From assembly GCA_021234155.1 (NCBI GenBank), contig JAJEKV010000049.1:8466036-8530035 (forward strand): a stretch of 64,000 nt of DNA, in the 5' to 3' direction. The position numbers and the translations under genes are program-made. The stretch comes from Isoetes taiwanensis (lineage: Eukaryota > Streptophyta > Lycopodiopsida > Isoetales > Isoetaceae). Position 1 is the first letter of the stretch. The number at the start of each line of letters is the position of its first letter. Under the pieces are notes generated by a model. It worked only from the letters and a program-made list of their open reading frames with translations. It ran no database searches and was not told the origin of the DNA. This document shows, piece by piece, positions 13,038 through 39,939 of this stretch.

Positions 13038-13050
13038 TCATACGGGTCTG

Positions 13051-14055: not shown

Positions 14056-14085
14056 CTACTATCTCCCGACCATTATCAGTACACA

Positions 14086-19975: not shown

Positions 19976-20246
19976 CGTGCGCCGTCTATATTAAACATAA
20001 GACGATATAAGCAGAATTGCAGTAACATTAAGTCTCACAGAAATCCGTTTTTAGGTAATGTCGAGAAACAACATGAACACGGAAAACGACGAAAGATTTA
20101 AATTATAGGCGAAGTAACGGTTACATCGAAAGCTTCACACTGACAGTAGTTATAAACTTATAGTTATATAATACATACATGGACCTGATACAGGCCATTT
20201 CCTTAGTCATACTGAAGCATAAGAACACAAAACTGGAAGATCTGGC
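19976..20246. other. Spacer between ORF-D and gag
   Basis: No open frame of note; AT-rich and intron-like in composition. Confidence 0.5.
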
Positions 20247-20726
20247 TTAGGGGTTGGCAAAGGGATACATGACGGAATAGCGCACACTCTCACGCACGGC
20301 TCTGACGAGCTTGTAACGGGCCCAAGCCTGGATGATAACGGGTTGATAATCCCAAGTGGGGCTAATGATGAGAAGGTTGAAAAGCCTCTGTAGTGCGTAG
20401 AAGATTTGCCAGAGGTGGTCATTGGCATCTTCGAAAGCTTCATGTCTGGACATATTCCAGTAATCCCATGTGCGGCAGAGGGTCCACTTCAGATCATCAA
20501 AGGCCCGTTCCCGGAGGATGGTAACTATCTCCATGCCCTTGTCTGGATCATAAGGTTCTTCTGGTTCTGCAGGTTCCTCCATCTCATTGTCACTTTCTCG
20601 TTCTGGATACTCGCCGTATCTTTGGCCGTAATCTTGTTCAGGAGGTCCCTGGTCATCCCTCAATATCTGTTCTGTAATCCTCTCTTCGTACTCCTCTAGT
20701 GTTTCTTCTGCAAAACGGCGGAATGA
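20247..20726 (-). CDS. Gypsy accessory ORF-D, unknown (possible histone-fold pattern)
   Basis: 138 residues from an ATG at 20663. The frame is open further up to about 20713, just after TTTTGCAG on the minus strand, which looks like a splice acceptor. The N-terminal third is acidic (MEEPAEPEEPYDPD). The rest is predicted helical by eye: RERAFDDLKWTLCRTWDYW, HEAFEDANDHLWQIFYAL, then YKLVRAVRESVRYS. The short-long-short helix spacing is compatible with a histone fold (H2B-like at best), but no residue signature proves it. It lies on the same strand as gag, 0.27 kb upstream of it. Could also be a capsid-related protein. Confidence 0.45.
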   Translation of the reverse strand, partial: SFRRFAEETLEEYEERITEQILRDDQGPPEQDYGQRYGEYPERESDNEMEEPAEPEEPYDPDKGMEIVTILRERAFDDLKWTLCRTWDYWNMSRHEAFEDANDHLWQIFYALQRLFNLLIISPTWDYQPVIIQAWARYKLVRAVRESVRYSVMYPFANP

Positions 20727-20882
20727 GTATATAGTACCAACTATATATCATGGAAGAGAATTATTCAAATTTATATTGGCATTATGTATTGAATTGATAC
20801 AATAAACAGTAATCACATCACGAGTGATAACCATGGTTTAAAACAACAGTGATTTCAAATGCAAAATACATAACACAATAAT

Positions 20883-21413
20883 CTAGGAGCTGGGTCCCTC
20901 GTCTTCGTCCATTGGCTGAGGAGGTGGACGGTAACGCATCAAAGTGGCGCTAGGGCTAGCAGAGAGGGCGGCTCGAGCTGCTGCCTCAGGTGGTAAGCAA
21001 GTAGCCAGAGGTGCCGCCACAAGGAGGCGCATGTTAGCGCAGCCCGCCACGTCCCCCAACGCTGCTATAGCCAAATCTCTACGGACCAAAGTAATGGTGG
21101 TGACGTGATAGTCAATCTTCTTATGGCCCGCTGAAGTGGATATGGCTCGGAGCGCCCACCAAGAAGCTTCAGAAGAAGGCCCTAAGTTCTTGGAGAAAAA
21201 TAGCACCTCTCCTTGGTGGAAGGCTGAGAGAAATAATCGGGCCACATGGTTGCCCATTGCCCTAACCTGAGGGTCGGTGGAGGTCTCCGCTTCTTTCTCC
21301 AAGTTGGTGGGGAGCTTCTCCTCCTCTTCTTCTTCCCTCTCATCCCTAAGGCTGACCTTGGTGTCCCAAAGGTCTTCCTCGTCTTGATCCACCTCTCCCA
21401 TAGTGATTTGCAA
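20883..21413 (-). CDS. Gypsy accessory ORF-C, unknown (possible histone-fold pattern)
   Basis: 176 residues. An acidic, Glu-rich N-terminus (about 1-45) is followed by MGNHVARLFLSAFHQGE, EASWWALRAISTSAG and TTITLVRRDLAIAALGD, with a Pro/Ala-rich tail ending in acidic residues. The third block has the shape of the histone loop-2/alpha-3 strand-and-helix (H2A: TRIVPRHIQLAVRND). The spacing to the second block also fits, but identity is weak. It is uninterrupted and starts 45 bases after ORF-B ends, so the accessory ORFs form a tight same-strand series. Confidence 0.45.
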   Translation of the reverse strand: MQITMGEVDQDEEDLWDTKVSLRDEREEEEEEKLPTNLEKEAETSTDPQVRAMGNHVARLFLSAFHQGEVLFFSKNLGPSSEASWWALRAISTSAGHKKIDYHVTTITLVRRDLAIAALGDVAGCANMRLLVAAPLATCLPPEAAARAALSASPSATLMRYRPPPQPMDEDEGPSS

Positions 21414-21458
21414 AGGCGGATCCGAGAGAAGAGACCGTGTCAGGTCCGCAAACTGCTC

Positions 21459-21818
21459 TTATGGAGGCTGGGGTGTGTCAGTTAGTAAGAACTGACGAAG
21501 TGACAGAAGAGTCTCAACGGGCTCTTGCTCTTCGGGCCGATATGCCAATAGGCTCTCTACTTGTGTAGGTTGCACAACCGGTGTGGTGAAGTCGATGAAG
21601 TCATCTTGGCAATACTCCGCAAGATCATAGAGAATCTCTATTTTCTTGCGGCGGACCCCAGTAAGAACGCGGTAGGCCCACATGATATCCTCAAAGATCA
21701 GGTACTCTTGGTCATTCAAGAGTACTGCAGGGAGAAGGTTTAGCCCTTCGAGCTTAAGGGCTTTCTGTCGGCTGGCAGGGGCTTCTGTAGCAAGTTCCTT
21801 CCATCTTACAAAATCCTG
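21459..21818 (-). pseudogene. Gypsy accessory ORF-B, 3' part (split by the copia element)
   Basis: The minus-strand frame continues from the copia target duplication: FVRWKELATEAP, then LLNDQEYLIFEDIMWAYRV, RRKKIEILYDLAEYCQ, ending in FLLTDTPQPP. It joins in phase with 35565-36094 when the copia element and one tcctg are removed, giving a protein of about 290 residues from the start at 36021. No family recognised. Confidence 0.75.
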
Positions 21819-22446
21819 TGTTAGATTAATGAACCCTTAGATAATTCCAATAGCAAGGATGAGACAAACACATGTAAAGTTTAACTCTCCATTCTAGACA
21901 ATAAAATATGTCTTAGTCTTTAAGTACAATAGAATCTAGCACCAAGGAAGCCAAGTTGTGGTCACTAATTCCTTTGTGCACTTATGAACTTCACACAAAA
22001 TCTAAATCAAGTTATGATCAATCAACCAAGCTAGTATGGCCATATTCCGGCATTCCTAGATCTTGATCCGCCTGATTGTCCACACCTTCCTCTGTAGATT
22101 GTGCGTCCCCTTATACTGGAAAGTCTACCGACTTGCCTAAAGATACGGAGTAGATAGGTCTTGCCGTCCATAAATTTAGGTTTCCCAAAATATCCGTTGA
22201 CTTTGACTTCCAAAACCCTAAACCTGCGGGCTGGGGGTATCTGACGTTTTCTGGCGGGTGTAGCAACGTCCGGGTAGTACCAGCCCACCAACCTAATTTT
22301 TTCAAGTATTGACTTCATACTTCCTTATTGACCTACTGCCACTGCTTCTCATAGATCAATATTGCATATGACTTCATGGACCTGCACAATCTTATCATGC
22401 AACATTGTTAAACAATGCATATAATATAACCTGACATATCTTCACA
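21819..22446 (-). repeat. 3' LTR of the copia element
   Basis: Plus-strand view starts TGTTAGATTAATGAACCC and ends 'gacatatcttcaca' (TG...CA). The purine-rich stretch complementary to 22447-22456 (GAAGGAGGA on the minus strand) is the polypurine tract next to it. Confidence 0.96.
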
Positions 22447-22453
22447 TCCTCCT

Positions 22454-23820
22454 TCATGTTATATTTATATGCATTATTTTGCCTTTCAGATAATTAAACC
22501 TCCGTTCTGCCAGTGACTTTGTAAGTATATCTGCTAGTTGCTCTTCTGTTCTTAAATATAACATACTTACCAATTTCTTTCTGACAGCATCTCTAATAAA
22601 GTGCATTTCTAGTTCTATATGTTTAGTTGGATTTTTTGACAATGCTATACAACTTGTACTGTCTGACCAAACTTTTGTAGCCAATGGTTGCTCAAACCCT
22701 AGCTCTATAATCAGTCTTCTTTCCCAAACGATCTCTTTTGAGCATAAAGTGGCAGCAGCATATTCTGCCTCTGCACTAGACATGGCTATGGCAGATTGTT
22801 TTTTGCATTTCCAGGATACGGGTGCACCTCCTAACATGACTAGATATCCTGAAGTTGATTTTCTGGTATCTACATCCCCTCCCCAATCTGCATCACAAAA
22901 ACCTTCAAGAATTAAATTATCTGTAGTGTATTTAATTCCTTCTTCAATAGTTCCCTTTAAATATCTTAGGACTCTTTTTGCAGCAGTCCAATGATCTCTA
23001 CCAGGATCAGTATTATATCTACTTAAGATATTAACACTATGTGCAATATCAGGCCTTGTGCAATTGGCCACATATGCTAAGCATCCAATTAATGATCTGT
23101 ATGGTACTGCTTGCATCTCCTCTCTTTCAATTTCATCTTTTGGACACATGCTCTCAGACAATTTACAACTAGGTACTGCAGGAGTTTTGCAAGCTTTACA
23201 ATCTTGCATATTAAATTTCTTCAACATGTCTAGAATTTGTTTCTTTTGAGTAAGCATTATTATGCCTTCTGCTCTATTTCTGCTCATTTCAACTCCTAGG
23301 AAGTTCTTCAACTCACCTAAGTCAGTCATTTCAAATCTTTGTCTTAGCAATTCCTTGCACATATTCAAGCAAGTTGTCCCTTTTGCTACCATAATATTAT
23401 CATCAACATACAATGCTATGATACACCATTCTTCCCCATGCTGGAATTTATACAGATTTCCATCATTATCTAATTTAATAAATTCATGCTCTCGTAGAAA
23501 CCCATCCATACACTTATACCATTCACGAGGAGACTGTTTCAACCCATATACTGCTCTATTGAGCTTCCAAACTTTGTCAATTCCCTGCTCAAACTCGAGC
23601 CCGCTTCATAAAGATTTCTTCTTCTAAGGTTGCATTCAAAAATGCGCCTTTTTACATCCATATGATGTACTTCTAAATCACAAGCATTTGCAATTGCCAA
23701 TAACATCCTAATGCTATTCATTTTCACTAATGGAGAGAAGGTTTCATCAAAGTCCCCGACCTTTTTCTGAGAACCCTTGGGCAAACAATCGGCTTTGTAT
23801 CTAGGTGTCTTCCCATCCAC
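22454..23820 (-). CDS. Copia reverse transcriptase and RNase H
   Basis: The main frame is 22454-23542 (362 residues), with the RT active site LYVDDNIMVA, then LTQKKQILDMLKKF, ADWGGDVDTRKSTSGY, MSSAEAEYAAA and the terminal LADILTKSL of copia RNase H. The N-terminal RT part is in another phase at 23539-23820 (DETFSPLVKMNSIRMLLA, corresponding to the YxxTFSPVxxxxSIR motif). One frameshift near 23540-23600 separates the two. Retrotransposon replication enzyme; inactive without repair of the shift. Confidence 0.95.
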
Positions 23821-24592
23821 ACCTTTTTTTTATTCTAATAGCCACTTGTTACCTACAATATTTTTCCCACAAGGTCTATCAACAAGCTCATATGTTTTAG
23901 TATTATGAAATGAATCCATCTCCTCATTCATAGCGTTTATCCATTTACCTTTCTCTCTTGAGTTTAATACATCTTCATATGTATTTGGGATTTCGGATCT
24001 AAGTGGGCTAAAATCTCAAATACACTATCCAATTCACCTTCTATATTCTGAATTCTTTTACTCTTACCTCGAGTTGTTCGACCATGGACTAAGGGATCAA
24101 TTTTTATATTTGCTTGTTGCGCCTTCTCTACTTCAAGAGCTCTTTTCTTCTTTTTGAGGTAAGTCAACAATAGTTACTGTGCTCGGATGGCTCAAATTGA
24201 ACTCGGATTTGGCAAATGCACTTCTTCAATCACCTCCTCCTTCATTAATGTTCTCCTCCGCACCACCGATTTGATTTGCTGATCATCTAATATATCATCA
24301 TCATTATCAATCATTTTGATATTAGTCATATCATTTTCAAGATTATCTCGATTAATTATGCTTTCAAAGAACCTCCTTCTCGCTTTATTCTCCTTGATCA
24401 GCACTTTATAAACCCCGAGATTCATCAAAGGTTACATCTCTACTTACCACAATTTTTCTAGTGCTTGGATTATATAACCTAAATGCCTTAGATTGTTTGT
24501 CATATCCAACTAGATATGTAATCATGGCTCATCTAATTTCTTCCCAGCTCTTCAGAATATGAGTGTATGCTAAGCACCCATATATTCTTAGC
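23821..24592 (-). pseudogene. Copia linker between integrase and RT, frame-broken
   Basis: Short minus-strand frames include RTTRGKSKRIQN, GVYKVLIKENKARRRF and acidic NDDDILDDQ stretches, typical of the poorly conserved region after copia integrase. Several frameshifts are present. No independent gene. Confidence 0.6.
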
Positions 24593-25016
24593 TTATTGTA
24601 CTCTATTGTTTTCCCCTGACCAAAGCATATCGGGATTGCCCCTTGTATACTTTACGGATGGCGGACTATTTTGAATCATGGCATTTGCTTGAACCGCCTC
24701 TTCCCATAGAAAATTTGGAAGCCCTGAGAATTTCAGCATACTTCTCACTGCATTGAGAAGAGTTCTATTCTTTCTTTCTGCAACTCCATTCTGTTGAGGT
24801 GAATATCTACATGTAAGTTGTCGTCTTATTCCCTTAAGTTTACAATATTGTTTAAACTCTCCTGACATAAATTCTCCACCCCTGTCAGACCTCAAACACT
24901 TGATTTTTCTGCCAGTTTCTGTCTCAACTTCATTTACATATTGTTTGAATACTTCCATTGCCTTATGTTTTGTCTTCAAGCAATATATGTGAGTATGTCT
25001 GCTAAAGTCGTCAATT
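24593..25016 (-). pseudogene. Copia integrase, C-terminal half of the core
   Basis: Reads IDDFSRHTHIYCLKTKHKAM, then IKCLRSDRGGEFMS (second Asp), QLTCRYSPQQNGVAERKNRT (catalytic Glu) and LLNAVRSMLKF. The first codons (ATT GAC GAC) continue the half at 33182-33723, which ends in RYFMTL at the PAT insertion. The catalytic residues are preserved, but the gene is split by 8.2 kb. Confidence 0.93.
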
Positions 25017-25048
25017 CTGGGAAGGGACTCGCAATAGACACAAAACCG
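25017..25048 (-). repeat. Split direct repeat, left end (copy A1)
   Basis: The 28 bases gaagggactcgcaatagaca plus caaaaccg at 25021-25048 are identical to 25908-25935. The left end of the element lies just before them. Confidence 0.9.
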
Positions 25049-25769
25049 GCCCGATAGATAGGCTTGTCATTCATCACAGCAGCAGTATACAATGGTATGA
25101 AGAATATAGAGGGATAGCCGACCATAGGAACAATATCGGACTACCACACAAACAGAACATGCGCATAGGCAAGATAGAAGGATAATAGCGACAACTTCTC
25201 ATCGGGATGAAAAACCCCGCCCTTTCGGGTTTTCGAGGAAAACCCTAATGAGAAACGGTCGCCAATAGCCTTAAATGTGTTGCCTGGAGAACAAGAGGGT
25301 TGATGGCAAACGCGAATTAAGCAGGACCCCCGAAGACGGCGAAACCGCAGAGGTGGGAGGTGGAGAAGTGCAGGAATTGGGCCGTGGGTGAGAAGAAAAG
25401 AACCGGACCCCCGAAAACGACGAAAGCCTGCAAGCACCACAAAAACCCCTAAAAACACCCGTGAAAAGGTTAGAAAAACAACATGCCTAGCGCCGAGAAA
25501 CCATCCCGTATCAAGAAGGTGCCAAATATGAGCAGAAAAGAACACAACAAAAAGAAATAGCATCACCCCTAAGGTGGAAAGCATCACCCAACGGGTGGAA
25601 AACAATATGTGGAAACATGCAGCATCACCCGCAGATGGAAAAGAATGCGGCAAAATGCCGATGAAAAGAAACCATGATAAGAAGAACACTCAAAGGTGGA
25701 AAACAATAATATTGCATGAACAACAAATGTAAACAAAAAAAGACGCAGACCCCACATAACAGGGTGGGA
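25049..25769. other. Non-coding end segment between A1 and the internal B1A2 repeat
   Basis: About 720 bp with biased composition and open frames on the minus strand that show no motif. In split-direct-repeat elements this position is terminal non-coding sequence. Confidence 0.5.
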
Positions 25770-25935
25770 AGGGAGGGAAGCAACGGAAATAGAAGAAGGA
25801 GCTGCTGTGAGAAGACGCCGATAACCGAGCCGAAAGAGGAACGGTCCCCGAGATAGAAAGCCCTTCCTCGTATCGTCGATCCGATGGCTCCTGGATCGAT
25901 GCTTCTCGAAGGGACTCGCAATAGACACAAAACCG
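25770..25935 (-). repeat. Internal junction repeat B1A2
   Basis: 25770-25903 parallels 33046-33181 (shared 'gaagcaacggaaatagaaga', 'aggagctgctgtgagaagac', 'gccgaaagaggaacggtcc', 'gtcgatccgatggct'). It is followed after a few bases by the 28-bp copy of the left end. The fused order equals what a circularised element would show at its junction. Confidence 0.92.
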
Positions 25936-25959
25936 CCGACTACCGCAGAACTTCCTTAA

Positions 25960-26950
25960 CTATAAGCCGAAATCACCGAAACCTCCAAGTGTTGAGTAGG
26001 GTCGCGGGCTAACGAGCGAGAATGAGAAGAAGAAGAGCCAACGACCGGAACGCCAAGCAAAGATCATGTGGAACGCCACAAACTGCTTTACAATACCGTA
26101 GGCCGCGACGAGCGCGTAATGTGTACCATACCGAGAGGGATCCAAGCCGATAGCGCGAAGGCAATCCGTCCACCATACACGGGCAGTTGGATAGGATAAA
26201 GGACGCAATGAGGAAGGGGAAGAACTAAAAGCGCCCGCCGCTGACGCGAGGATCGAGGAGATGGTAAGAACCGTAGAAATCGGGGCTGGAGGATAGTGAC
26301 CGGCAGTTACGACGGCAAGCGGCTAAGGAAATCGTGATGGTCAGCGAAAGCAAGTTGGTCACGCTTTAGAACGGGCGAATAAGAACATCAACGTGAGATA
26401 AGGAAAAAGAAAGATCACGCCAATTGAGAGCCAGGCTCCTGGAATGCGAAAAAGCGCAAAGGAAAGCACGACGAGATACGGGCGCTGGGCCAACGAGGAA
26501 AAGGAGCCGAGGGATGCTGCGGCGGAGAACGATAGAACGCATATGCCGAGGCGAGAGGAAGAAAGGTACGAGGAGGGCGGCCCGACGAAAAGAGGACCGA
26601 CGAGCCAAAGATGGTAAAGGTAAAACTAAGGAGAGGGAAGGTTGAAAATTTGATGGAAAAGGAGATGGTCACCGAGGTCGGGCAAATCCATGAGGGCTTA
26701 CATCTGAGGGTGATGAAGAGCGGCAAAAAATGCGGCAACGACAAAGGGAGAAGCAGGAAGATAAGAAACAGTATGTAAACGGCACCAAATAACAAACCGG
26801 CGGAACATAGCAAAATAAGCCGTAAGAGTAGAGGGAGCGCGAGAGGAAAAGACCAGAGGCAAAGTCGAAAGGAACAAGGGGACCTCCTGAGGAGTGAGTA
26901 AGCGAAAAATAGCTGCCAAAAACAACATAAAACCATGTTAACTTCATTCA
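25960..26950 (-). pseudogene. Tyrosine recombinase of the PAT-like element
   Basis: Minus strand: 26928-26698 gives SRAPSTLTAYFAMFRRFVIW and ASPFVVAAFFAAL, an N-terminal SAM-like core-binding domain. About 26.4 kb gives LNWRDLSFSL, the LxWxD box. 26208-25960 gives YPTARVWWTDCLRAIGLD and SRYGTHYALV, then WRSGRWLFF, which follows the HxLR...GxW region with the catalytic Arg. That Arg box is disturbed by a frameshift (HYALV instead of HSLR). The frames shift several times, so the enzyme is dead in this copy. It starts where the RNase H frame ends. Confidence 0.82.
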
Positions 26951-27726
26951 AATTGACAACGAAAAACATAAAGAGCTACATGACGCCGACACCCAATAAA
27001 CGAGGCCGACATATGAGGTAATAAAGCCAATGAAAATGCATCAAAAAACATAACATCCTTAATAAAAGATGCCCATGCCGCTCCCGTCCAGAGTAAGGGC
27101 CACCAAGGTGCAGAAGGCCAATGAAGAACCACGAGCGTAATACGAGCACGACACGCGGCCGCATGATGCAAAACGCGAGGAACGACTGAGGGCGGCGGAA
27201 AACAAAAATTGTTAAAGAGGTGCCAATCATAAGTAAAAGCATCAGGGGGAATGCGATGTGGATATGCGAACCGAGTATTATAAACGGGAAGCTTGTGGTT
27301 AAGGGGAGAAGCAAAACGATCAACATGATGGGGGCCCCACAAAGAGTCAATATAGCGAAAACACCACGGGGCAAGTGCAAACTCATCAGATTGAGGAAGG
27401 CGAGAAAGATAATCAGCCCACTCGTTTTGGGAGCGCGGAATCCACACAGGTTCTAAGGAGATGAAAAAATGAAAACAAAGGAGGAAGATTTCCAAGGTGA
27501 GAAAATGAATATCGGGCGAAGAAGAACCCCCTTTCGGGAGAATGGTTGCAACATTTAAATTATCGCCACGAACAGTGACGAGACGGGTATGGAGGAAAGG
27601 CAAGGCCGAGCGCAAAACCTGATAGAAAGCCAAGAGTTCGCGCCAAGTGGAAGAACGAGAAAGGTCCGACTCGGAAAAAAGGCCAACAAAATCCGGGGTC
27701 CGACCCGGGAGAAGGAGCCAAACCAA
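26944..27726 (-). CDS. RNase H and distal domain of the PAT-like element
   Basis: 260 residues: SSTWRELLAFYQVLRSA and VTVRGDNLNVATILPKGGSS, then WIPRSQNEWADYLSRLP (RNase H), then DSLWGPHHVDRFASPLNHKL, DAFTYDWHLFNNF and LHWPSAPWWPLLW. The WGPHxVDRFAS and AFTxDW blocks follow RNase H in DIRS/PAT elements and are not found in LTR elements. This is the best preserved frame of the element. It overlaps the recombinase start by a few bases. Confidence 0.88.
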   Translation of the reverse strand: MVWLLLPGRTPDFVGLFSESDLSRSSTWRELLAFYQVLRSALPFLHTRLVTVRGDNLNVATILPKGGSSSPDIHFLTLEIFLLCFHFFISLEPVWIPRSQNEWADYLSRLPQSDEFALAPWCFRYIDSLWGPHHVDRFASPLNHKLPVYNTRFAYPHRIPPDAFTYDWHLFNNFCFPPPSVVPRVLHHAAACRARITLVVLHWPSAPWWPLLWTGAAWASFIKDVMFFDAFSLALLPHMSASFIGCRRHVALYVFRCQFE

Positions 27727-28330
27727 AAAAGAATCCGGCCGAAACCAAGGACGGCGGAAGGACGCGCGGCTGAGGAAATAGGGGCTTAAAACTCAAAGAA
27801 GAGGCGATAGATTCCCATAACACAATTTCCATACCAACCAAAGAGGACAAAGAAATAGGAGCATCCCAAGGAGAAGGTCAAAGAAGACGATAGGAAAAGA
27901 AGGTTAAAGCGAAACAAGGGAACCAAAACAATGCGAAGGATTGGAGAAAACCCAAGAAGCTGCAAGGTGACGGGATGTAAGACGAGAGGAGGAAAGAAGG
28001 GAAGAGGAAAGGCGAAAAAACTTGGCAATTTCCTGAAGAAAGGCAAATAATCATAGATACATCAAGGAGAAAACCAAGGAAAATAACGGCGTGACAAACA
28101 CGCATTTACATTTAGGCCAAAGAATGAGAAACCCGCAGATTGCAAATCGGAAATGATGCGATATTGAAGAGAACAAGGGTCATCTTTGGCCGAAGTTAAA
28201 CGAAAAATCATCCATATAAGGAGTGCAACGGATAATCGGGCGGCAAATGGCGGACTAGTGGGCGATTAATTTGGTGAAGACCAAGGGAGGCAAGACCAAA
28301 AGGAAGCATGGTGAAGACAAAAATTGGTAC
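27727..28330 (-). pseudogene. Reverse transcriptase of the PAT-like element, frame-broken
   Basis: Minus-strand readings across frames give FTMLPFGLAS, then FTKL, then a YMDD box (YMDDFSF) and FLGFLLDVSMIICLSS, the order of DIRS-type RT (PFGL, FTK, YxDD, LGF). At least two frameshifts and internal stops are present. Continuous with the RNase H frame downstream. Confidence 0.72.
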
Positions 28331-29350
28331 TCAAACCCAAAACCCAAAAAGTGTGATGAGGAGGCCGATAGGAACATGATGGTAAACGGATTCAGATCTA
28401 AGGTAAAGAGAAAATCCCGGGTTGAAGGATAGCCAAAGCATCGAGGAGGAAAAAAAGAAGAAACGGAAAAGAGGAGTTAAGATAGCGCCAAAAATCAAAC
28501 GGAACTTATGGTCGCTTTGGGCAATGAAGAAAGGGGAAGAGGGAACCGCAAGACCAAGACGCGAAAAGGTCCCGGATGGCGCGAAGGAAAAGGAATATGC
28601 AAGGATAGAAAGAAAGGTTGGGGCAAAAAAAATGGTTGAGGTGGAGGACCCTGGCCCAAAGAGCATAGCCAACCGATCCAAGACAATACCGGGAGGATTG
28701 GCGTAAATAGAGAAAAAGGTAACCCATAAGCAAGAAGACTTAAAACTCAAGGTAGCATAATAGAATGTGGAGCCAATCGGATCAAAGGGAAGATGGGGCA
28801 AAGAAGAGGAAAAAACTTGACAATCGTTAAAATAGGAAAATAATATCCTTTATTAATGATCAAAAGGAAATACAACACATAGTGAAAATCAATAAAACCC
28901 TCACGAAGACCAATGTGGAGGCGTAGCGGGGAGGGGGGAAGGCGAATGTGGTGAAGAGGACAAAGCCATTAAAGGAAGGGTGAGGGGGATGAGACCAAAA
29001 GTGGAGGAGCATGGTGAAGACAAAAAAACAATACTCAAACCGAAAACCCAAAAAGTTGATGAAGAAGAGGAAAAAGGGCGATGATCGGAACATGATGGTA
29101 ACCGGGCGAATTTCCCGATGCGAGATCTAAGAAAAGTAAAGGAGAAAAATTGCAAAGGTTGAAGGATAAAGAACAAAGCATCTCCTCCGTCCGCCAAACG
29201 CTTACCTTCTTCCAAAGAACGAAAAATCGATCTGAAATACCCCCAAAATAGAGGCGCCAGAATCCATCGAAACCTGGGGTCCAAATCAAACTCACTTATG
29301 GAGTCACCCGGGCCAAAAGGCAGTCGAGCCCCGCCACAAGTCTTGGTCAA
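28331..29350 (-). pseudogene. RT N-terminal region, partly duplicated
   Basis: Two related blocks carry the same RT stretch: near 29280-28990 (SGNSPGYHHVPI..., FGFSVEYCFFVFTML) and near 28390-28280 (YHHVPI..., then FVFTMLPFGL). Nucleotide parallels include 'catggtgaagacaaaaa' and 'gaacatgatggtaa' in both. A partial duplication of RT cannot belong to a functional polyprotein, so this copy is rearranged. Confidence 0.65.
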
Positions 29351-30289
29351 AAACCGGGTCCGGTCAGATAACCATCGATGACCGAGGCCTCAAGGGTGGC
29401 GAAGCCTCACCGTAATTAACGCACGAGAAAAGGAGCAACAATGGAAGAGAAAAGAAGAGAAAAAGAGGGGCCAAAAAGAAAAAGAAAAGAAAAGAAAAGG
29501 AGCAAGAAAGGCCTGGAGACCAAAAGGAGAAAATAGCATAAACCAATAAAAACAACATGAGGAGAAACCAATCGGGTCCCAAGAACTGCTCAGCGAGGAA
29601 CCGCCCAGCAAAGACGAGCGAAGCAAGAAAAGCAAAAACTAAAACCCAACTCGAAAAAAACTGGCTATAAAGAACAAAAATAATGGAAAGAAGAACCCGC
29701 CCCGCCTACCAGAGGAAAACAAATCGCAAAAAATGAAAACCAGCCTACGAACGAAGTCGGGTCCCGCCCACCGGTGATCACTAAACAACAATGTGAAGAA
29801 AAGAAAGGAAAAGAAAAGAAAAAAAAAGAAAAAAAACCCAAGAAACAATAAGATGAAACCAATAAAAAAAAACATGAGAAGAAAGAAAAAACCAGACAAT
29901 AAAAACTAAAACCCAAGAAATGTCTATAAAGCCTAAAGAAGAAAAGAAAATGCAAAATGAATAAAAGCATCCCGCGAGTGAAAGGCACTGGAGAAAAATA
30001 GTAAAGAACAACAATAAGATGAAGAGGAAAAAAAACAATATAGAAAAAGAAAGAGAAAAGAAACAAAAAGCATCCGGCATTAGTAAAGCGTCATAGAGAG
30101 CAGCACGAAAAACACAATATAGAAAAGAAAGAGAAGGGAAACACGGTACGACAGAGTAGAATAACAATGGCGATTGCAAGAAACCCACAACGTAAACCAA
30201 AAAACGAAAAGAAAAACACGGCCAAAACCATAAACCGAAAACATAATCCAAATAGCCCAACAACCGTAGAGTAGTGCAGAGCAACGAGA
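29351..30289. other. Extremely purine-rich strand, low complexity
   Basis: The plus strand is dominated by AAAG/GAAAA runs. The long open frames on the minus strand (Phe/Leu/Ser rich) are a composition effect. Short duplicated blocks ('aaaccaataaaaa', 'acatgagaag') recur. Corresponds to the 5' half of the PAT-like element. Confidence 0.65.
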
Positions 30290-30840
30290 AAAAGACAGGG
30301 GAAAAGAGAAAAACCGAAACCACCATGGGAAAACACCAACATTACCAGATGAGGCTACATAGAAAAAACCCACATGGGCAAGTCATGAAAAACGGAGACG
30401 TAAAAAAGTATCCTGAACCCAAGCAAGAACCCCCGACAAAGCCCTTAGTGACATCGAGATCCCAAAGAAAACACAATTGCCAAGGAGAAAAATCCGAAAC
30501 CATGCTGGGAGAACACGAAATCTAGAAGAGCATGCCACATATAAAAGACCCAATCAAAAGATATAAAAGGAATAGATAAAAAGATATACCCAATGCACAA
30601 TGCCACCACAAAATCCCCTAGGTGCAACGATATCCAATAAAAAACCACAATTGCAAAGGAAAAAAATCCGAAACCACTATGGGAAAATACAAAAGTGAGA
30701 AATCAAGGCACGTATAAAGAATCCATGGGCATGGGCAATTAGAACGAAAAACGTAAAAAGATCATAAGAAAGGATACCCATAACCAAATGAGAACCATAT
30801 GACAAAAAACCTTAAATGCCGTATACAGAATACCAACAAT
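30290..30840. repeat. About 180-bp tandem repeats inside the PAT-like element
   Basis: The phrase AAACCGAAACCACCATGGGA / AAATCCGAAACCATGCTGGG / AAATCCGAAACCACTATGGG recurs at about 30309, 30489 and 30666, a spacing near 180 bp. Other shared words include 'acacaattgccaaggagaaa' versus 'ccacaattgcaaaggaaaaa'. Copies are diverged. Confidence 0.72.
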
Positions 30841-31034
30841 AAATGAAACGGGAACCCCCAACATGGCACAAAGAAAAGCACATAAAACCCATATGAAAAT
30901 TGCATTATGCGCATGTTAAAGGTGCAAAAAACATGAAAAAGACAAATGTTTTATTCAAGATTATTCATCCAAAGGTGTCAACATCTAGAAAAGGCCAAAA
31001 ACTGAGCAAAACCGTGGTCCCGAGGCAAGGACAA

Positions 31035-31613
31035 TCACGCAATGATTCCCAACGAGATCGCCGGATAAGTGGGAAGAAACTGCGGGGGGTACTCCGTCAT
31101 AATGAGAAAAAATTCACGCAACTGAATCGGGCGCAAAGATGTAAAACCCCAAAGCAAAATGACGTCCCCCAAGAAACGAGCACGAGCGGGGTCGAGAAGC
31201 TTATAGGAGCGAAAAACTCGACGGACAGAAGGAGAAAAAGCGGCATAGAGACGAAGCGCCCGGAAGAACTCAGCAGGCCAGTCAACGTCCGCCCGTGCAA
31301 CCTGTAATGCATTGCTAGCGGAGGGATGCAAAGCATGCAAATGAGAGGTATAAAGGTGGTGAGTAGTCATCGGAATCTCAGGAGGTGCAAACGGAGGGAA
31401 AAATCCAAGAGGGAACATCTGAGTGGAGCAAAGGGGGCAAGGGAACGGCATCGGAGGCCGAAAAGAAACAACCAAGGAACGGAAACGATAGGGGAAACAA
31501 AATCCGGTGGAAAAGGAGCAATGGCAGAAGAGATTAAAAAGGGAACGAACAGGAACAAGAAGAAAAAACGAACGGCCAGAAACCTCATGCAAGCAGGATG
31601 AAAAGAGAAGCAT
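31035..31613 (-). CDS. Open frame in the gag position of the PAT-like element, unrecognised
   Basis: 192 residues on the coding strand, upstream of RT. The second half has mixed composition (RADVDWPAEFFRALRLYAAF, VRRVFRSYKLLDPARARFLG), unlike the surrounding low-complexity frames. It could be a gag or capsid-like ORF by position only. No zinc knuckle or other motif is clear. Confidence 0.3.
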   Translation of the reverse strand: MLLFSSCLHEVSGRSFFLLVPVRSLFNLFCHCSFSTGFCFPYRFRSLVVSFRPPMPFPCPLCSTQMFPLGFFPPFAPPEIPMTTHHLYTSHLHALHPSASNALQVARADVDWPAEFFRALRLYAAFSPSVRRVFRSYKLLDPARARFLGDVILLWGFTSLRPIQLREFFLIMTEYPPQFLPTYPAISLGIIA

Positions 31614-32454
31614 GGATCAGAAAAATGGGCGGCCCAAATCAAGTAAAAATAGCTGGCCTCAGGAAAAGAGAGCCCAAAATTACAGCAGAGGAGCGGTGGG
31701 TAGCGAAGGAAACAAAGCGTAGATAGGGCCAGAGGTCTGAGATCGGCCAAGCAGAAGCAAAGAAACCAGCATCTATCGGCATGCCAAAGGGTATCAATCG
31801 GTTACCAAGGAGGAAAGCGGCTATCAAGGAGGGAAGCGGCGAGAGAGACAAGCAGAGATTGGGCGGAAAAGGAACCAGAAGGAAGAAAAACAGAGACAGA
31901 GAGGGGAAACGGAAGCTAAGGAGCAGCAAGACAAGCCAAGCTTGGCGAAGAAAGCTGAAATCACGAGGCAATCAGAGAGAGAACCTGGCAAGGCCGAACA
32001 GCATATGGGAGCAATGCGGGGAGGCAAACGAAAAGCCAAAAAGACCAATGGCAGGATCTGCGGACAGTCTCAAGCCACAGAAAAGAATTAAAGAGAAGGG
32101 AAACCGTACCCAATAAAGGATGAACAAGGCGAAACAGCAGAATGAACAGACCCGATGGAGCAAAAACCGAGCAAAAGACCCAACAAAGAGCAAATCGCAA
32201 GCAAATCGAATCAACACAGCAAGGCAGAAAACCGAGATCACGCTAAATCATGAGGACACCCAAACCGTAAACATGGCACAAAAATAGAGCAGCCGATGCC
32301 AAGGAAACAACCTCCACACAAACGGAAAACAACAAACAAAGAACATGCGAATACAGGGAACAGTAAAACAAAGAAAACTTACAGAATCCAGGCGAATCAA
32401 CCCGCGAATAGCGCAACAAGCGGAAAAAAGAGAACAAAGAAATCCACGCGAGCA

Positions 32455-32607
32455 ATGGTGATAAAACAAGTGAATACATCAACAATAGAACAAAGAAATC
32501 GACGGGAATCATGGAGCTTCTGCATGCAAGCAATGGTGATAGAACAAGTGAATACATCAACAATAGAACAAAGAAATCGATAGGAATCATGGAGCTTCCG
32601 CATGCAA
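32455..32607. repeat. Two-copy tandem repeat of about 76 bp
   Basis: The unit beginning 'ggtgataaaacaagtgaata' and ending with 'gcttctgcatgcaagcaa' is repeated immediately with few changes. Confidence 0.88.
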
Positions 32608-33045
32608 ATACCGCAACAAAGTGGGCGAACAAAGAAAACGTTAGAATAAAAAAAAATTGACCCGAGTAACAGAGAAAATTGCAGACATAATGAGTAGGAT
32701 GCAACATGCGAATACCGCACAAGCGGAAAATCATAGAACAAGGAAGCTAGAAGATGACCGATGATCCCACAGGCGAAGATATCAACAATAAACCAAAAGA
32801 AATCGTCAAGAAGCATGGTGATTGACATATAATTACTTCCACAAGCCGTGCGAACACGGAAAACAACAGAGCAAAGAAATCTACGAGAATACACGTGAGA
32901 TATTCCAAACATAACAAGTAGAAGAGGAGGAGACGAGGGCGTACCTTCCAAAGAAGGGTAAGCAAGCTCGCGAGGAAGATGCCGAGAGTGAGGACGTGGA
33001 GATAGGAACCGAGGGAGAAGCCCAAAAAGAATTCCATTAGTCGAA

Positions 33046-33181
33046 GAAGGGAAGGAAGCAACGGAAATAGAAGAAGGAGCTGCTGTGAGAAGACGCCGAT
33101 AACTGAGCCGAAAGAGGAACGGTCCTGATATAGGAGCTCGTCCCTTCCCAGAATGTCGATCCGATGGCTCGGATCGATGCT
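33046..33181 (-). repeat. Split direct repeat, right end (copy B2)
   Basis: Parallels 25770-25903 for about 130 bp and ends at the copia integrase junction. Confidence 0.92.
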
Positions 33182-33723
33182 ATTAAGGTCATGAAATATC
33201 TCTTTCCAGATAGCCCTGTTATATTCATTGGTCCACACAAATCAGTGTGAACTAAATCCAGCAAACCTTGTGCTCTTTTGTTAGATCTTTTAAAGGCTAG
33301 TCGATTATGTTTGCCAAGTGCACATCCTACACATATAGTTTTTCCAGATTGATTCAGATCTGCTTCTATGAATCCTTTCTTACATAATAACTCAATGACT
33401 TTGGAGTTTGCATGACCAAGCCTTCCATGCCATATATCAACTGATGGCATAGTTACAAGATTCAAACAGGTTGGTTCACAATGTATGTTATCAAGACCAA
33501 ATAGATTCCCAATTCTTCTGCCAATAAACTTCACTTTATTTTCATATAACACATTACATTGCAATCTTTCAAACACAACCTTATAGCCAAGATCTACTAA
33601 CTGCGCAATGGAAATTAAATTCCTTACAAGACCGGGCACACACATAATACTTTTTCCAAGATAACTTTCTTCCCTTGCAAAATCAAACAACTCAAGCATT
33701 CCACTATCTTTAATTTGCTTCAA
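33182..33723 (-). pseudogene. Copia pre-integrase/zinc finger and N-terminal half of integrase
   Basis: Reads GKSIMCVPGLVRNLISIAQL, IWHGRLGHANSKVIELLCKK, CVGCALGKHNRLAFKRS (the HHCC finger), then LLDLVHTDLCGPM with the first catalytic Asp and GKRYFMTL, where the PAT-like element begins. Continues in phase at 25016. Confidence 0.94.
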
Positions 33724-34903
33724 CTCTCCATTCCCGAATCATACATGTCCTTTTTGCTCCCCTTTGCAATTTTTCAACAATCTTGAGCTTGAAGCTCTTG
33801 ATTTCTCAGCTCTGAATCTAAAATGAGAACATTCTTGTTATGAGATTTTTCCTTTGAAAAACAATTGGTTGAGATATTTACCTCTATATCTTCATCTAGT
33901 TCTTCCTCCTCGATTCTTTAACCACATTCAAGCTAGGACTATTTCTTCCTCCTCTCAAGCTCTTGCCCTCAAAATATTTCTTATCTTTTCCTTTATTTCT
34001 TTTTGGACTTGGACACTTGTTTGCCATGTGACCCTTTCCTTCCACAGTTATAACGGACTATTTCTTTATCTTGCTTGGGACAATTTATCTTCAAATGTCC
34101 ATAATCGTTACATTTAAAGCATGGACCTATCTTCCCTTTATCATAAGATTTCTTACCTTTTTACCAAAGATACAAAGACTTCGCCTCATCATCATCAAGC
34201 ATCCTTTCCTTGCTCAAACTCTCATGCGAATCATCTTAATGGCATGCTCCTTGGACACGGCAACATTCCTCAACAGAGTAGCAAGTTGTGCATTGTGAGA
34301 TCTGACTCTAGAAATAGCTAATAATTGGTAGTCATCATTAAGAACAACCCCTGCACCTTCAAGGTCAGCAATAATAGACTCAAATTTCTCTAAAAATTGC
34401 GTAATATTGTCTCTTTCATAGAGCTTTAACTTTCTTAGCTGTTTTTCCAAAACAACTATTTGAGATGATGATTTAATCTCATAATTTTCAATCATATACT
34501 TCCACATGTCTGCTGGAGATTTGCCTCTTAATTTTAACTTAATCACAGTACCAACCTTGCTGCTGATTATTGATTGAGCTTCCATAATTTTTGTTTTCTC
34601 ATCAGCACTTGTCCTCAGGGTGGTACCTCCACCAACACTTGCACTAGCAGCTCCTCCTGTACCTGGAGATCCAGCCTGTGCACCACCTGCAACAGAGCTA
34701 GCACTAGCAGTAGGTCCTCCTGTACGATCACCACTAGAATCCCCAGTGCCTGCTGCTGTACCAGCTGTATTTACATCACATAAATACCATAGATTTTCAA
34801 ATTCCAATACCTCCTTTATACTTTGCTTCCATAACTGAAAGCCACTATCTCCTTTAAATATCTCAATGGAATTAAGGAGATTTGCTCCAAAGCGTGTTGA
34901 CAT
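33724..34903 (-). pseudogene. Copia gag and degenerate nucleocapsid region
   Basis: 34903-34214 (229 residues): NLLNSIEIFKGDSGFQLWKQ, a Gly/Ala/Thr-rich insert, SADEKTKIMEAQSIISSKVG, LRGKSPADMWKYMIENYEIK and LEKQLRKLKLYERDNITQFL. This is the UBN2/Retrotran_gag type of copia capsid. Below 34210 the minus strand has CFKCNDYGHLKI-like and further Cys/His remnants in broken frames, consistent with zinc knuckles and protease lost to frameshifts. Confidence 0.88.
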
Positions 34904-34920
34904 CCTGCACCTGGAATTTT

Positions 34921-34935
34921 AAGGCTCTGATACCA
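34921..34935 (-). promoter_or_regulatory. Copia primer-binding site (initiator Met tRNA)
   Basis: The complement reads TGGTATCAGAGCCTT, matching the 3' end of plant initiator tRNA-Met, one base from the LTR end. Confidence 0.95.
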
Positions 34936-34936
34936 A

Positions 34937-35564
34937 TGTTAGATTAATGAACCCTTAGATAATTCCAATAGCAAGGATGAGACAAACACATGTAAAGTTT
35001 AACTCTCCATTCTAGACAATAAAATATGTCTTAGTCTTTAAGTACAATAGAATCTAGCACCAAGGAAGCCAAGTTGTGGTCACTAATTCCTTTGTGCACT
35101 TATGAACTTCACACAAAATCTAAATCAAGTTATGATCAATCAACCAAGCTAGTATGGCCATATTCCGGCATTCCTAGATCTTAATCCGCCTTATTGTCCA
35201 CACCTTCCTCTGTAGATTGTGCGTCCCCTTATACTGGAAAGTCTATCGACTTGCCTAAAGATACGGAGTAGATAGGTCTTGCCGTCCATAAATTTAGGTT
35301 TCCCAAAATATCCGTTGACTTTGACTTCCAAAACCCTAAACCTGCGGGCTGGGGGTATCTGACGTTTTCTGGCGGGTGTAGCAACGTCCGGGTAGTACCA
35401 GCCCACCAACCTAATTTTTTCAAGTATTGACTTCATACTTCCTTATTGACCTACTGCCACTGCTTCTCATAGATCAATATTGCATATGACTTCATGGACC
35501 TGCACAATCTTATCATGCAACATTGTTAAACAATGCATATAATATAACCTGACATATCTTCACA
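34937..35564 (-). repeat. 5' LTR of the copia element
   Basis: 628 bp, nearly identical to 21819-22446. The visible differences are near 35183, 35191 and 35247. Confidence 0.96.
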
Positions 35565-36094
35565 TCCTGCTCATTGACGACTTCGTCATCTTCTGGGTCA
35601 GGAGGTAGAGGCGTAGAAGAATGCTCAGCAGGAATCTCCTCATCCTCTATGTACTGGTCCATAATGATGGCCAGTGCAAATCGGGCCTCAAAACAAGTTT
35701 CCCGATCTATTGTAGCAATAGGGAGGTCGGTCCCTCGCCGTCGGATGCCTTTGATGACGTTGCGGGCATGCTCATCACCCCCTAACATCTGGTGCAGGGT
35801 GTGAAAGTCAAGATAGAGCTGCTCATCGTCTTCATTGCAAATGCATGCAGGTACAATCTCCTCACAATAGAACTGAAGGAAAGCAGCATAATCTGGATGG
35901 GCCTGCATGTTGGAGATAAGATCTACCTGCTGAAGCAGGTAGGGGTGAAGAAGATCAAAGGGAACCGCAGGGTCCCAATGCTCTCCGTCCAAATACCACT
36001 GCTGCAGGGTTGGGCGAGCCATGAGGGGTGAAGGCGCAAAGGAGGAGGAAGAAGGCGCAGAAGCAAGAAGGGAAAATGAACCCCTAATGGCCAA
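35565..36094 (-). pseudogene. Gypsy accessory ORF-B, 5' part (split by the copia element)
   Basis: The frame opens at 36094, with a plausible start at 36021 (MARPTLQQWYLDGEHWDP). It reads YAAFLQFYCEEIVPACICN, ARNVIKGIRRRGTDLPIATI, then ETCFEARFALAIIMDQYIED and an acidic PPDPEDDEVVNEQD at the copia junction. The RRG..I..ET...F.L..I.D spacing loosely recalls histone H4 (RRGGVKRISGLIYEET), but this may be chance. It follows ORF-A by about 240 bp of AT-rich spacer. No family identified. Confidence 0.55.
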
Positions 36095-36263
36095 AAAGGG
36101 GTTTTATACTTTTTGGCACGTTTCCCGAAATTATTATTAAAAAGACTTATTTACTTAATAATAATTTCCAAAAAAAATATTTTTATATTCACAACCCCAA
36201 AAATGGGACTAGTACATGGATAAATTACAAAAATTGTACAACAGAAAGGAAACGGTCGCCTAA
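36095..36263. other. AT-rich spacer between ORF-A and ORF-B
   Basis: Rich in ttatta/aataat; intron- or UTR-like; no frame. Confidence 0.5.
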
Positions 36264-37592
36264 TCATCTAAAATCCCCTCGGATCCTTCGTGCCAAGTGA
36301 AGGTCCTTGGGCATAATAGTAACCCTCTTTGCGTGTATGGCGCAAAGGTTGGCGTCGCTCAAGAGTTCAATAAGATAAGCCTCGGCAGCCTCCTGTAGGG
36401 CGAGAACCGCAAAAGCTTGAAATCTTAAGTCGGTTTTGAAGTCTTGGGCGATCTCCCGCACAAGTCGCTGGAAGGGAAGCCGGCGGATCAATGGCTCGGT
36501 AGTCTTCTGATACTTACGTATCTCTCGAAGAGCTACCGTGCCAGGTCGATACCTATGGGGCTTCCGCGGCTTGAGGGTCGCCTTAAGCGACGGAATGGAT
36601 TTGCCGTCTGTCAAAGGATGCTTTGTGCGCTCAACGATCTGCTCCCTTCTCTGAGCCGATGTCTTCTTGGCGATTGTTGCATCCTGCTGCAGTCGGGTCT
36701 TATAGTGCACCCCACTCTTAACAGGTCTGGACTTCGTTCTCTTCAATCTCCGGTTACCCCGCTCGTTCGTCTGCTGTGGGTCTGCCGATTGGTTAACGTC
36801 GACAGGGTTTTCCTGGGGGTTAACGTTCTGAGCCGCACCTAGGTCCTGCTGGCCAGCATCAAGATTCTGCTGCTGCTCCACCTGCTGGTAATCCGGCTGA
36901 TCCCCCTGCTCATTCTCGCTCTGGTGGCTATGGAGGTCCTCCCCTTCCTTTTGGAGCCGCTCTCGCTCTTCGGCCCGGGCCTCTCTCTCCAGACGCACTT
37001 GTGTGCGCCGGGCAATTTCAGTATGGTACCGGTCCGGTCGTGCCCGCATATCTTCTTGGATGGATTCTAGGTGGCATTGGCTAAACCGTGGCGGAACATT
37101 TTAAAAAATGAAGCTGTTAAGGCCTTCATTCCAAGAAAAGGTAGGAAGGTTAAAGTATTCTTGGTATGTGAGTATACGACCCTTTCCCAAATAATAGAAG
37201 CGGTCCATCCTTATGTCCGGTGGAGCACTGGCTATCTGGTGCAAGTCTTCCACTCTCGCAAGATGCATGATCCTCTGGGCTTCATTCCGACTAAGCTCTG
37301 CAGGGTCGTCATCTGGTCCTGGCGAGGGATAAAACTTAACCACAGCCCATGCACGGTCCGGCTGCTCCACGAGAGTGTAGTCCTGACCAGCTTCATTCAA
37401 CTTGAGGAGGAAACGCTAGTTGAAGTGGAAGATAGGGTAGGGGACTCTTCGGCCCTCGACAAAGTGCTTGACGAAAAGATTAAGAATGGTATCTATCATC
37501 GGGTCCTCGTCAGCAAGATGCTCAACTAGCGCGGCAAACAACTGAAATATGTTCAGCTTCTTCAAGTCCACGGTTAGCTTAAAGCGCGGCAT
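36264..37592 (-). pseudogene. Gypsy accessory ORF-A with C-terminal histone H3 domain
   Basis: A single minus-strand frame of 442 codons from MPRFKLTVDLKKLNIFQLF at 37592, with two in-frame stops (TAG at 37416, TAA at 37101). Residues 1 to about 200 are of unknown family. A charged, Gln-rich segment follows ([20 protein letters not shown]), then a basic linker ([15 protein letters not shown]). The last 99 residues (36267-36563) are a histone H3 globular domain: [80 protein letters not shown]. The usual H3 tail (ARTKQT, ARKS) is absent. It is the first ORF after the primer site, on the same strand as gag-pol. It may be a chromatin mimic or tether; that role is inferred. Confidence 0.9.
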
Positions 37593-38287
37593 GGTTGTAC
37601 TTAGCAAAGAACAGCAAGGAAGGAGGAAGGTGAGGCGCTCAGGCAAGGGTGGACGGCACTCAAGAGTAAATAAGGGCGCTGAGGCGTAGGGCAGATGCAA
37701 GGGAGGCGTGGAGGTCAGCTATGGCGAGTTTGGAGCTTAAGTCCGGCGGCTATGGCAGAAAAGGGTGCTCAGAGAAAACACACGCCCAAAAATATATTTC
37801 AAAATTCAAATTTTAACTTTTAACTTTTTATTAAAATTTTCAAAAAAATATTAATTTTTTTTAAAAAAAATTTAAACGGGCGCGTATAAAAATACCGCGA
37901 CCGTATGGGGCGCTGCGTTGCTTATACGGCTTTTATTTTTGAAAAGAAACACCTCTGAGTAAGGCAGCGCCCCTTTCCATTTTTCGGCGGCCTGTTGTCT
38001 TTTTGACCTCGGGAGACGTGCCCCCTAGGGTATTTGAGAGGTGCCCGATCCATTGGAGCCGTTTTCGCCTTCATCCGAGCTACCTACAAAAAGTTATAGC
38101 TCCTCGAAACTTGGGCCTTCCAGTCGGCCCAGACTTCGCAAGGAATTGCAGTCTATTACATTAACCTAGCACTAAATCAAACATCAAAGACTTAAACACT
38201 CACTCTTGCTTAACTCTCTCTCTCCTAACTACCGAACTAGCGAGTTAGGGTTTGGTCAGTGCTATGATTTCGAGTAACCGAAATCAC
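37593..38287 (-). other. Leader of the gypsy element
   Basis: Untranslated region between the primer site and ORF-A. It holds a strongly AT-rich tract (37795-37880). An upstream in-frame ATG at 37700 could extend ORF-A by 36 residues. Confidence 0.6.
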
Positions 38288-38300
38288 GGCTCTGATACCA
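38288..38300 (-). promoter_or_regulatory. Gypsy primer-binding site (initiator Met tRNA)
   Basis: The complement is TGGTATCAGAGCC, one base from the LTR end at 38302. It fixes the element's orientation as minus. Confidence 0.96.
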
Positions 38301-38301
38301 C

Positions 38302-39939
38302 TGTGACGCTCCCTGAACATATACGACCCTCGGCCGTATACATACGGGGACTTTCCCCTCCCATGGCAACCAACTTGCCATAAGCAGGGCCCTCCGTCTA
38401 ACTCGGGCCGTCTATAATAAGACGCTCAAGTGAAGGACACAGAGGGGTCATTCGGCCCACGCCTTCAATGGGCGCCTACGTCGCGGAAACGTGAATACAA
38501 GGGTTAGCACACAACATAAATCACATATAAATAACCACCACGAAGGGTGGCACATCCATCCAAATACCAACGGCAAAGAATATGCATCTAAACCTAAGAA
38601 AACACCCCAAACCCCAGGTTCTACCCCGGTTCCGACTCCTGTGAGGATAGACTGACGGCTCGGCCACAAGAGATCAGCAGACAGAGGTATAACCTGGCGT
38701 TGGCTGGTATAGAACATCGGCTAGGGTGGTCCACTCCATCCGCCCCTCCTGTGCACACTTTGCAGATGGGTCAATTCACGCTATGGCGTCGCTATAGCCT
38801 TCCGGAGACGCAGGCTCGAGGCATCACCCTGCTGAGCCTACTCCATGGTTCATGAAGTCCCGGTCCGATGAGGCAGGTCAGGGAAGCGTCCCCTTCCAGA
38901 ATCACAGTGGCTCCATGGGTGAGCTAGAGAATACGTGCCGCATCAGCGACCCCCGCATCCGTACCCGACTTACTCACCCTAAATCTACTCAAAGTGCAAG
39001 GTGCCCCATACGGGTCACACCTCTACACCCAGGGAGTGTCAGACCCATACCCGGCCCTCTATGTGACCGGCTATCAGGTCTAGCTCACTATAGGAGTCTC
39101 AGGAGCCTTTTATGTTCGTGCAAGACCCCACCTCCACTTCACCACTGTGTTCCTTGTCTGGTGCTAAGCCAGTACCATAGCATCTATGACCCGGTGGGCT
39201 CTTGTGCACAGGCCGCATCTAACGGGTAATACAGGGCTCTATCTAGGAGCATACTACAATAAATGGGCTCAGAGGTCTCTATCCCCCCTTAATTCCCCCA
39301 TTTCCAGAATAATACTAGGCAAAGAACCATCAATCCATCCTTTGAAAACAATCCCAGAATCAAAATATAAAGAGAACGAACTTACCTTTACAATCAAGGG
39401 TTAGTTCCTACGAGTATAACACAGAGAGAACAGACAACCAACCCAACATGTGCCCAAAAGGGGCGCTATCCTAGAATTCACAACTACACTAGCCACCCAC
39501 CTGTGTTTCTGCTGGACCCGTTATCGTTGGGGATTTCCATCTTCTCGGTCCGGGTGTTCAGCTCTGGTCACAAGGGTGGCGTCCAACTGCTCAAGGTGGC
39601 GCTCAGTTCTGGTCACAGGGGTGGCGCTCCACTGCTCTTGGTGAATAGTGGCTGATACGGGGGTGGTGATCCACCTTATTGGTCTCAATTAGCATTACCA
39701 TGTTAGCCAATCGATGGTGGCCACGTGGCGCCTTCCCAAGCCATAATTAACTTAATTATGCCTTTTTAATATGAGTTCCTTAATTATAGGTTATTATCAT
39801 TAATAATTAAATTAGCATAGCTAATTTAATCCCTTTTAAGTCAACCCCCTAGGTTACCATACCCCATGGTGGCGTATCTGTACTGGGTGACGTGTCAATA
39901 TATTTATATGTATACCGTATAAATACTTGGAATGTCACA
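38302..39939 (-). repeat. 5' LTR of the composite gypsy element
   Basis: 1,638 bp bounded by TGTGAC...GTCACA. Parallel to 7584-9226; the first 450 and last 280 bases are almost identical, the middle less so. It drives the minus-strand transcript. Confidence 0.96.

Follow-up and report, generated by a model that had tools for sequence, protein, structure and literature searches.

The analysed window is a 64,000-nucleotide stretch of the Isoetes taiwanensis genome (assembly GCA_021234155.1, contig JAJEKV010000049.1, forward-strand positions 8,466,036 to 8,530,035). On its minus strand lies a whole LTR retrotransposon with nested insertions (7584..39939), flanked on both sides by the 5-bp TSD GCTAG (7579-7583 and 39940-39944). 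The 5′ LTR (38302..39939) and the 3′ LTR (7584..9229) form a minus-strand repeat pair with 92.8% identity (K2P divergence 0.061 over 1619 sites), and a primer binding site (PBS; TGGTATCAGAGCC, 38288..38300, minus strand) adjoins the 5′ LTR. The first ORF of the element, ORF1 (36264..37592), starts 708 nt from the PBS, and gag and pol follow it on the same strand. An initial annotation of this DNA had placed a histone H3-encoding ORF between the PBS and gag of a TSD-bounded gypsy element, in the element’s own orientation, and the repeats, TSD and gene order in the window bear this out.

ORF1 is the remnant of a 442-codon frame on the minus strand. It begins with an N-terminal domain of ~200 residues (36993..37592), continues with a linker rich in Gln and then a basic stretch, and ends in a histone H3 core formed by residues 344-442 (36267..36563), equivalent to H3 37-135. 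These final 99 codons (36563-36267) are intact, match the Pfam Histone family (PF00125) with an E-value of 2.9e-42, and have an H3.3 chain (7ux9) as their best match in the PDB (E 7.1e-51). The initial annotation was right that this frame ends in a 99-residue H3 core, and that the three parts upstream of the core replace the usual H3 tail. It was wrong to treat the frame as open, and it did not notice that it lies on the minus strand: the N-terminal domain is interrupted twice, by the stop codons TAG (37418-37416, codon 59) and TAA (37103-37101, codon 164), and the open part of ORF1 consists of the last 261 codons from an ATG.

We found no convincing relative of the N-terminal domain in Pfam or the PDB, so any role assigned to it is a guess. 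NCBIfam searches with three ORFs gave a sub-threshold archaeal-histone match in L015, a chance-level pilin-accessory match in L049, and nothing in L028, and one scan of viral contigs with the window’s 261-residue frame returned no relative. An AlphaFold prediction for these 261 residues alone reached a pLDDT of 53, with a histone-fold-like spacing of helices at a confidence too low for use.

Downstream of ORF1, the start of a second extra ORF with no Pfam match (ORF2; 35516..36067, minus strand) is severed by a younger Ty1/copia insertion (21819..35564, minus strand), which has the TSD TCCTG at 21814-21818 and 35565-35569 and an LTR repeat with 99.4% identity. A BLAST comparison of eight sister copies with the window found this insertion missing in six, and the remaining two could not be aligned across the site. 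The copia element is itself seemingly interrupted at 25768-33181, with a flanking repeat (25768-25903 / 33046-33181) of 87% identity. A second insertion (about 12264-19248) lies between the N-terminal part of gag (Retrotrans_gag, Ty3_capsid; 19234..19698, minus strand) and a minus-strand frame encoding the C-terminal part of gag, protease, RT, RNase H and the integrase zinc-binding domain (9139..12246). It contains ORFs and a ~300-bp repeat pair (14477-14790 / 15020-15319), and is missing in sister copy L012, which spans this inner insertion site. A Pfam search of the window’s pol frame gave no integrase-core match. With two in-frame stops in ORF1, the nested copia element, the second insertion and no integrase-core match, the window copy of the element is dead.

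Two further sets of features lie in the window around the element. A minus-strand pair of LTR-like repeats (44234-44621 / 5579-5955) has a PBS at 44234, 86.8% identity between its members and ~72% similarity to the H3-element LTR over 315 columns; judging by these repeats, the H3 element may be nested in an older related element. A second, heavily decayed H3 core lies at 1490-1820 (plus strand). A stretch of 59 residues, interrupted by a stop, retains 37-46% identity, and another 20 follow in a different frame; at position 107 this core carries A, as the element cores do. It sits shortly after a frame of the form HRIP..TFTYDWH (960-1260, plus strand), which is similar to a frame of the form HRIP..AFTYDWH at 26944-27726 (minus strand), and both frames look like DIRS-type fragments.

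Chromovirus features of the element

In L012, gag, protease and RT share a single 850-codon frame, which is the next long frame after ORF1 and separate from it. ORF2 was not seen in this copy; in L023 it lies downstream of ORF1 (L023:1814-3273) as two overlapping frames, also with no Pfam match. L053, the continuation of L012, encodes an integrase core that Pfam scores below its cut-off. It also encodes an SH3-like domain and a chromodomain (PF00385, E 3.2e-8) whose best solved match is yeast Chd1, and which was read in this one copy only. Comparing this chromodomain by eye with HP1, we take two of its three cage residues to be missing, since the first and third are not aromatic. The order PR-RT-RH-IN is seen both in the window, without the integrase core, and in L012/L053. 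In the description given by a survey of chromoviruses and other LTR elements, chromodomains mark chromoviruses (PMC6317226). On the strength of the integrase chromodomain in one sister copy we assign the H3-bearing element to the chromoviruses, which sharpens its earlier classification as gypsy.

The element shares with plant chromoviruses its LTRs, a tRNA-type PBS, the gag-PR-RT-RH-IN order and a C-terminal chromodomain, and differs from them in adding a pre-gag ORF that ends in histone H3. The word “histone” occurs once in the main text of the survey, with reference to H3K9 (PMC6317226). The same text defines an eORF-5′F as a forward ORF of about 250 codons or more upstream of the polyprotein (PMC6317226), and ORF1, which precedes gag-pol in L012, is such an ORF, like those of the Ogre, Retand and Athila elements. 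As the survey describes them, however, these extra ORFs are highly heterogeneous, with plant mobile domain, Transposase_28 and Athila ORF-1 as prominent domains (PMC6317226); by that description, the H3 element differs in keeping one histone domain across deep clades, and in being a chromovirus.

Copies across the genome

We searched the whole assembly (1.658 Gb, 1110 contigs) with PF00125. The best 150 of 8705 first-look candidates, which are not to be equated with copy numbers, comprise 135 element-type and 15 host-type H3 matches as assigned by score and coverage. The element-type matches are spread over 70 contigs; open frames of at least 390-400 aa are found in 38 of the 135, and frames shorter than 200 aa in 42. 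We read 45 copies, namely the window copy and 44 picked by H3 score from the 135, and confirmed an element-type H3 in every one. The first-fetched set of 20 copies has an H3-core ORF throughout, and the exact PBS is found in 11 of its 14 copies with an unbroken ORF1, 678-725 nt ahead of the start codon. Sister copies are collinear with the window element (eight compared by BLAST). L028 was too divergent for this comparison; it shows LTR similarity upstream of ORF1, and the exact PBS was not found in it.

Searches that started from other parts of the element led back to the H3. At least 27 of the best 40 LTR matches could be tied to an H3 on the correct strand: 25 were linked by script (9 as 5′ LTR and 16 as 3′ LTR), and two are the LTR pair of the C1035 element, in which a decayed H3 was read (L058). 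A search with the clade A N-terminal domain (clades are described below), with no H3 in the query, found an H3 103-462 nt downstream in at least 85 of the best 150 of 2856 candidates. Stop-free matches with an open frame of at least 400 aa account for 41 of these 150, and 37 of the 41 have a listed H3 downstream. Five of the remaining 65 matches were fetched, and all five contain an H3 core, frameshifted in three. Wherever the sequence beyond the N-terminal domain permitted a judgement (85 + 5 of 150 matches), no copy lacked an H3. Clade C is also large: in a search with its N-terminal domain, 72 of the best 150 of 3442 candidates are stop-free with frames of at least 400 aa, counted by openness alone. 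The surroundings of ORF1 (LTR and PBS) were read in clade A, and clade C is known from ORFs alone.

The H3 domain is part of a retrotransposon, in many copies. The initial annotation had proposed this from a single copy, holding that the H3 belongs to the element and is no passenger in its flank, and the 45 copies read and the position of ORF1 in other family members agree with it. It had also named two observations that would speak against its proposal, copies lacking the H3 and a chimeric assembly join. The former did not turn up among the judgeable copies. As to the latter, the probability that assembly has joined a host H3 gene to an LTR element is negligible: none of the copies read offers evidence of such a join, and the element-type H3s on 70 contigs come from copies that differ from one another yet share element-specific residues.

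Some or all ORF1 genes might instead have been domesticated and now serve as host H3 variants. The very strong constraint described below and the many unbroken frames would fit such a history. The published Isoetes repeat library was, as its description states, purged of repeats matching plant proteins (PMC8566536), from which we infer that H3-bearing families may have dropped out of the library and their ORFs been left among predicted genes; ORF1s might thus be annotated as genes. But copies lie between an LTR and gag, and 42 of the 135 frames are shorter than 200 aa, as in a mobile family, and we consider domestication very unlikely.

Origin, residues and selection of the H3 core

Unbroken ORF1s of 400-459 aa occur in 18 of the 45 copies and fall into three clades: clade A contains 13 copies of the window type, clade B contains L028 and L050, and clade C contains L049, L051 and L052. 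The N-terminal domain is present in all 18, with an internal gap in L051, and a basic region can be recognised ahead of the core in each of the three clades; the frame of L016 continues beyond the H3 end. Between clades, the N-terminal domain is 29-34% identical and the H3 core 80-87%. In a DNA tree restricted to this genome’s H3s and rooted arbitrarily, the 42 element cores fall in a single clade, separate from the eight host H3 genes (support 99/97), and clades A, B and C are each supported. The tree excluded L026 and L046, whose core pattern was unmatched, and L032, which is short; the residue table of 43 cores excluded L026 and L046. The single clade and the shared substitutions contradict independent recent captures of host H3 genes, and the element H3s are probably of one origin.

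Full-length element cores share 81-88 of 98 core residues with host H3, a canonical plant H3 / H3.3 sequence, and align to it gap-free. In this they lack the hallmarks of CENH3, a divergent core and a longer loop 1. Element-specific changes relative to the host fall at 86-89, at 101-107 (102, 105 and 107 among them) and at the C-terminus. T107A, a change of S87 to F or H, and a change of E105 to S or G are found in all 43 cores, and positions 86, 87, 102, 105 and 107 are changed in nearly all of them. We take the 86-89 and 101-107 regions to include the sites that discriminate H3.1 from H3.3 and to lie near the H3-H3′ bundle, so that normal deposition could be impaired. A further change, L60P near the start of alpha-1, is found in 35 of the 43. 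At 54 positions, the 43 cores are invariant and identical to the host. These include C110, H113, R116, D123, L126 and R129, presumably positions of the H3-H3′ bundle, and R52, K56, R69, R72, R83 and T118, which we take to be DNA-contact positions.

The canonical tail (ARTKQTARKS...) was not found in any of the 18 unbroken ORFs, where 300-350 residues replace it; position 36 is R in 15 of them, Q in one and K in two. We looked for relics of the tail (STGGK and ARKS motifs before the core) by local alignment against 1000 shuffles per copy, and rejected them (p 0.04-0.76 in 18 copies). The basic region of two clade C copies, L049 and L051, contains the motif VARKSG, possibly a K9/K27-like site.

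We estimated omega by the Nei-Gojobori method for the 18 unbroken ORFs and two of the eight host H3 loci. In clade A (78 non-independent pairs among 13 copies), the median omega is 0.039 for the H3 core, 0.132 for the N-terminal domain, 0.144 for the basic region and 0.192 for the linker. For the H3 core, the single pair of clade B gives 0.033 and the three of clade C give 0.034. Constraint is weaker outside the core: the basic region of the clade B pair, at 0.65, goes against the trend, and between clades, where most dS values are saturated, the finite omega values for these other regions are 0.2-0.6 (0.23-0.57). Comparison of the window copy with L012 gave 0.022 for the H3 core, 0.059 for gag-PR-RT and 0.188 for the N-terminal domain. 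Because the copies of the main sample were selected on H3 score, the core might look more constrained than it is; however, clade A shows about 45% synonymous differences against 3% replacement differences, which picking by protein score alone hardly explains. When four copies found by their N-terminal domain (L054-L057) were paired with one another and with the window copy, omega was 0-0.126 in the six pairs with finite dS, and the other four of the 10 pairs were saturated; these copies agree with the main sample, and L058 was excluded from the set as too decayed. By these values, far below an omega of 1, purifying selection acts strongly on the H3 core. A tree of the H3 domain and a dN/dS comparison among copies had both been proposed in the initial annotation, and both came out in its favor.

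The same values bear on the idea that the H3 is a functionless host retrocopy that one element picked up and that then spread with it by hitch-hiking. LTR elements are described as capturing host genes (PMC6431247), but we consider a mere passenger highly improbable here: synonymous sites between clades are mostly saturated while the core is still 80-87% identical, the six finite-dS pairs not chosen by H3 score have low omega, and long open frames persist in 38/135 H3, 41/150 clade A and 72/150 clade C matches.

Possible roles of an element-borne H3

Two features make real use as an H3 the best explanation in our view: the constraint on the core, which exceeds that on gag-PR-RT in the one comparison made, and the fixed DNA-contact and tetramer positions. 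We propose, with a confidence that we would put at even, that a chromovirus lineage captured a host H3 once, and that ORF1 enters nucleosomes, displays an element domain there and serves the element. The capture would have happened long ago, with the H3 core becoming fused to the C-terminus of an element-specific ORF1 protein. This protein would pair with host H4 and be incorporated into nucleosomes, and its large element-specific domain would protrude where the H3 tail usually exits. Anchored in chromatin, the domain would most likely dock the pre-integration complex or RNA, alongside the chromodomain integrase; perhaps it would also create nucleosomes without the silencing marks at K4/K9/K27. 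Incorporation, tethering and anti-silencing had been suggested as possible roles in the initial annotation too. In its fullest form, the proposal is that a retrotransposon lineage builds its own tail-swapped H3 into nucleosomes and so makes element-controlled chromatin that guides integration and dodges silencing, which we hold to be a serious possibility just short of an even chance.

Loss of the tail might be the point of the fusion. The element’s unintegrated or new DNA would then be packed in nucleosomes that cannot be methylated at K9/K27, and would escape heterochromatin. This agrees with the replacement of the tail in all 18 unbroken ORFs, with the predominance of R at position 36 (R 15, Q 1, K 2), and with a core more constrained than gag-PR-RT in one comparison. 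The VARKSG motif of L049 and L051 could, however, mimic K9/K27, and the integrase chromodomain, read in one copy, may mean attraction to marked chromatin. Taken by itself we find this explanation rather unlikely, but among uses of the protein we think that chromatin docking of element complexes would be the likeliest and anti-silencing its close rival.

We give a similarly low probability to a use outside the nucleosome, with the H3 core binding H4, a histone chaperone or an importin as a handle in nuclear entry or in RNA/cDNA packaging in particles. ORF1 is separate from gag-pol, a basic region precedes the core in all clades, and changes at 86, 87, 102, 105 and 107 recur in nearly all 43 cores, all of which would suit such a handle. 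Against it stands the invariance of what we take to be the DNA-contact positions in the 43 cores, which goes beyond the obvious needs of chaperone or importin binding alone.

Histones are carried by other mobile or viral genomes as well. A bracovirus encodes H4. Melbournevirus and Medusavirus, both large DNA viruses, are described as encoding histones, and the latter has the full set of four core histones (PMC11500106). The element resembles them in being a mobile genome with its own histone, and differs in that an LTR retrotransposon carries a single H3, joined to an orphan domain. We found no description of a retrotransposon-encoded histone in literature judged by titles and abstract openings, with few subscription papers and without TE databases (Repbase). 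Extra 5′ ORFs, captured genes in LTR elements and giant-virus histones are known, and H3 is the unusual cargo gene here.

Retrotransposons read histone marks via chromodomains; if our proposal is true, one that brings its own histone would affect chromatin directly. The family would offer a natural experiment, in which a tail-less H3 evolving outside the host shows which core residues cannot change. It would also be a test case for transposons that escape silencing through a changed substrate, not through enzymes.
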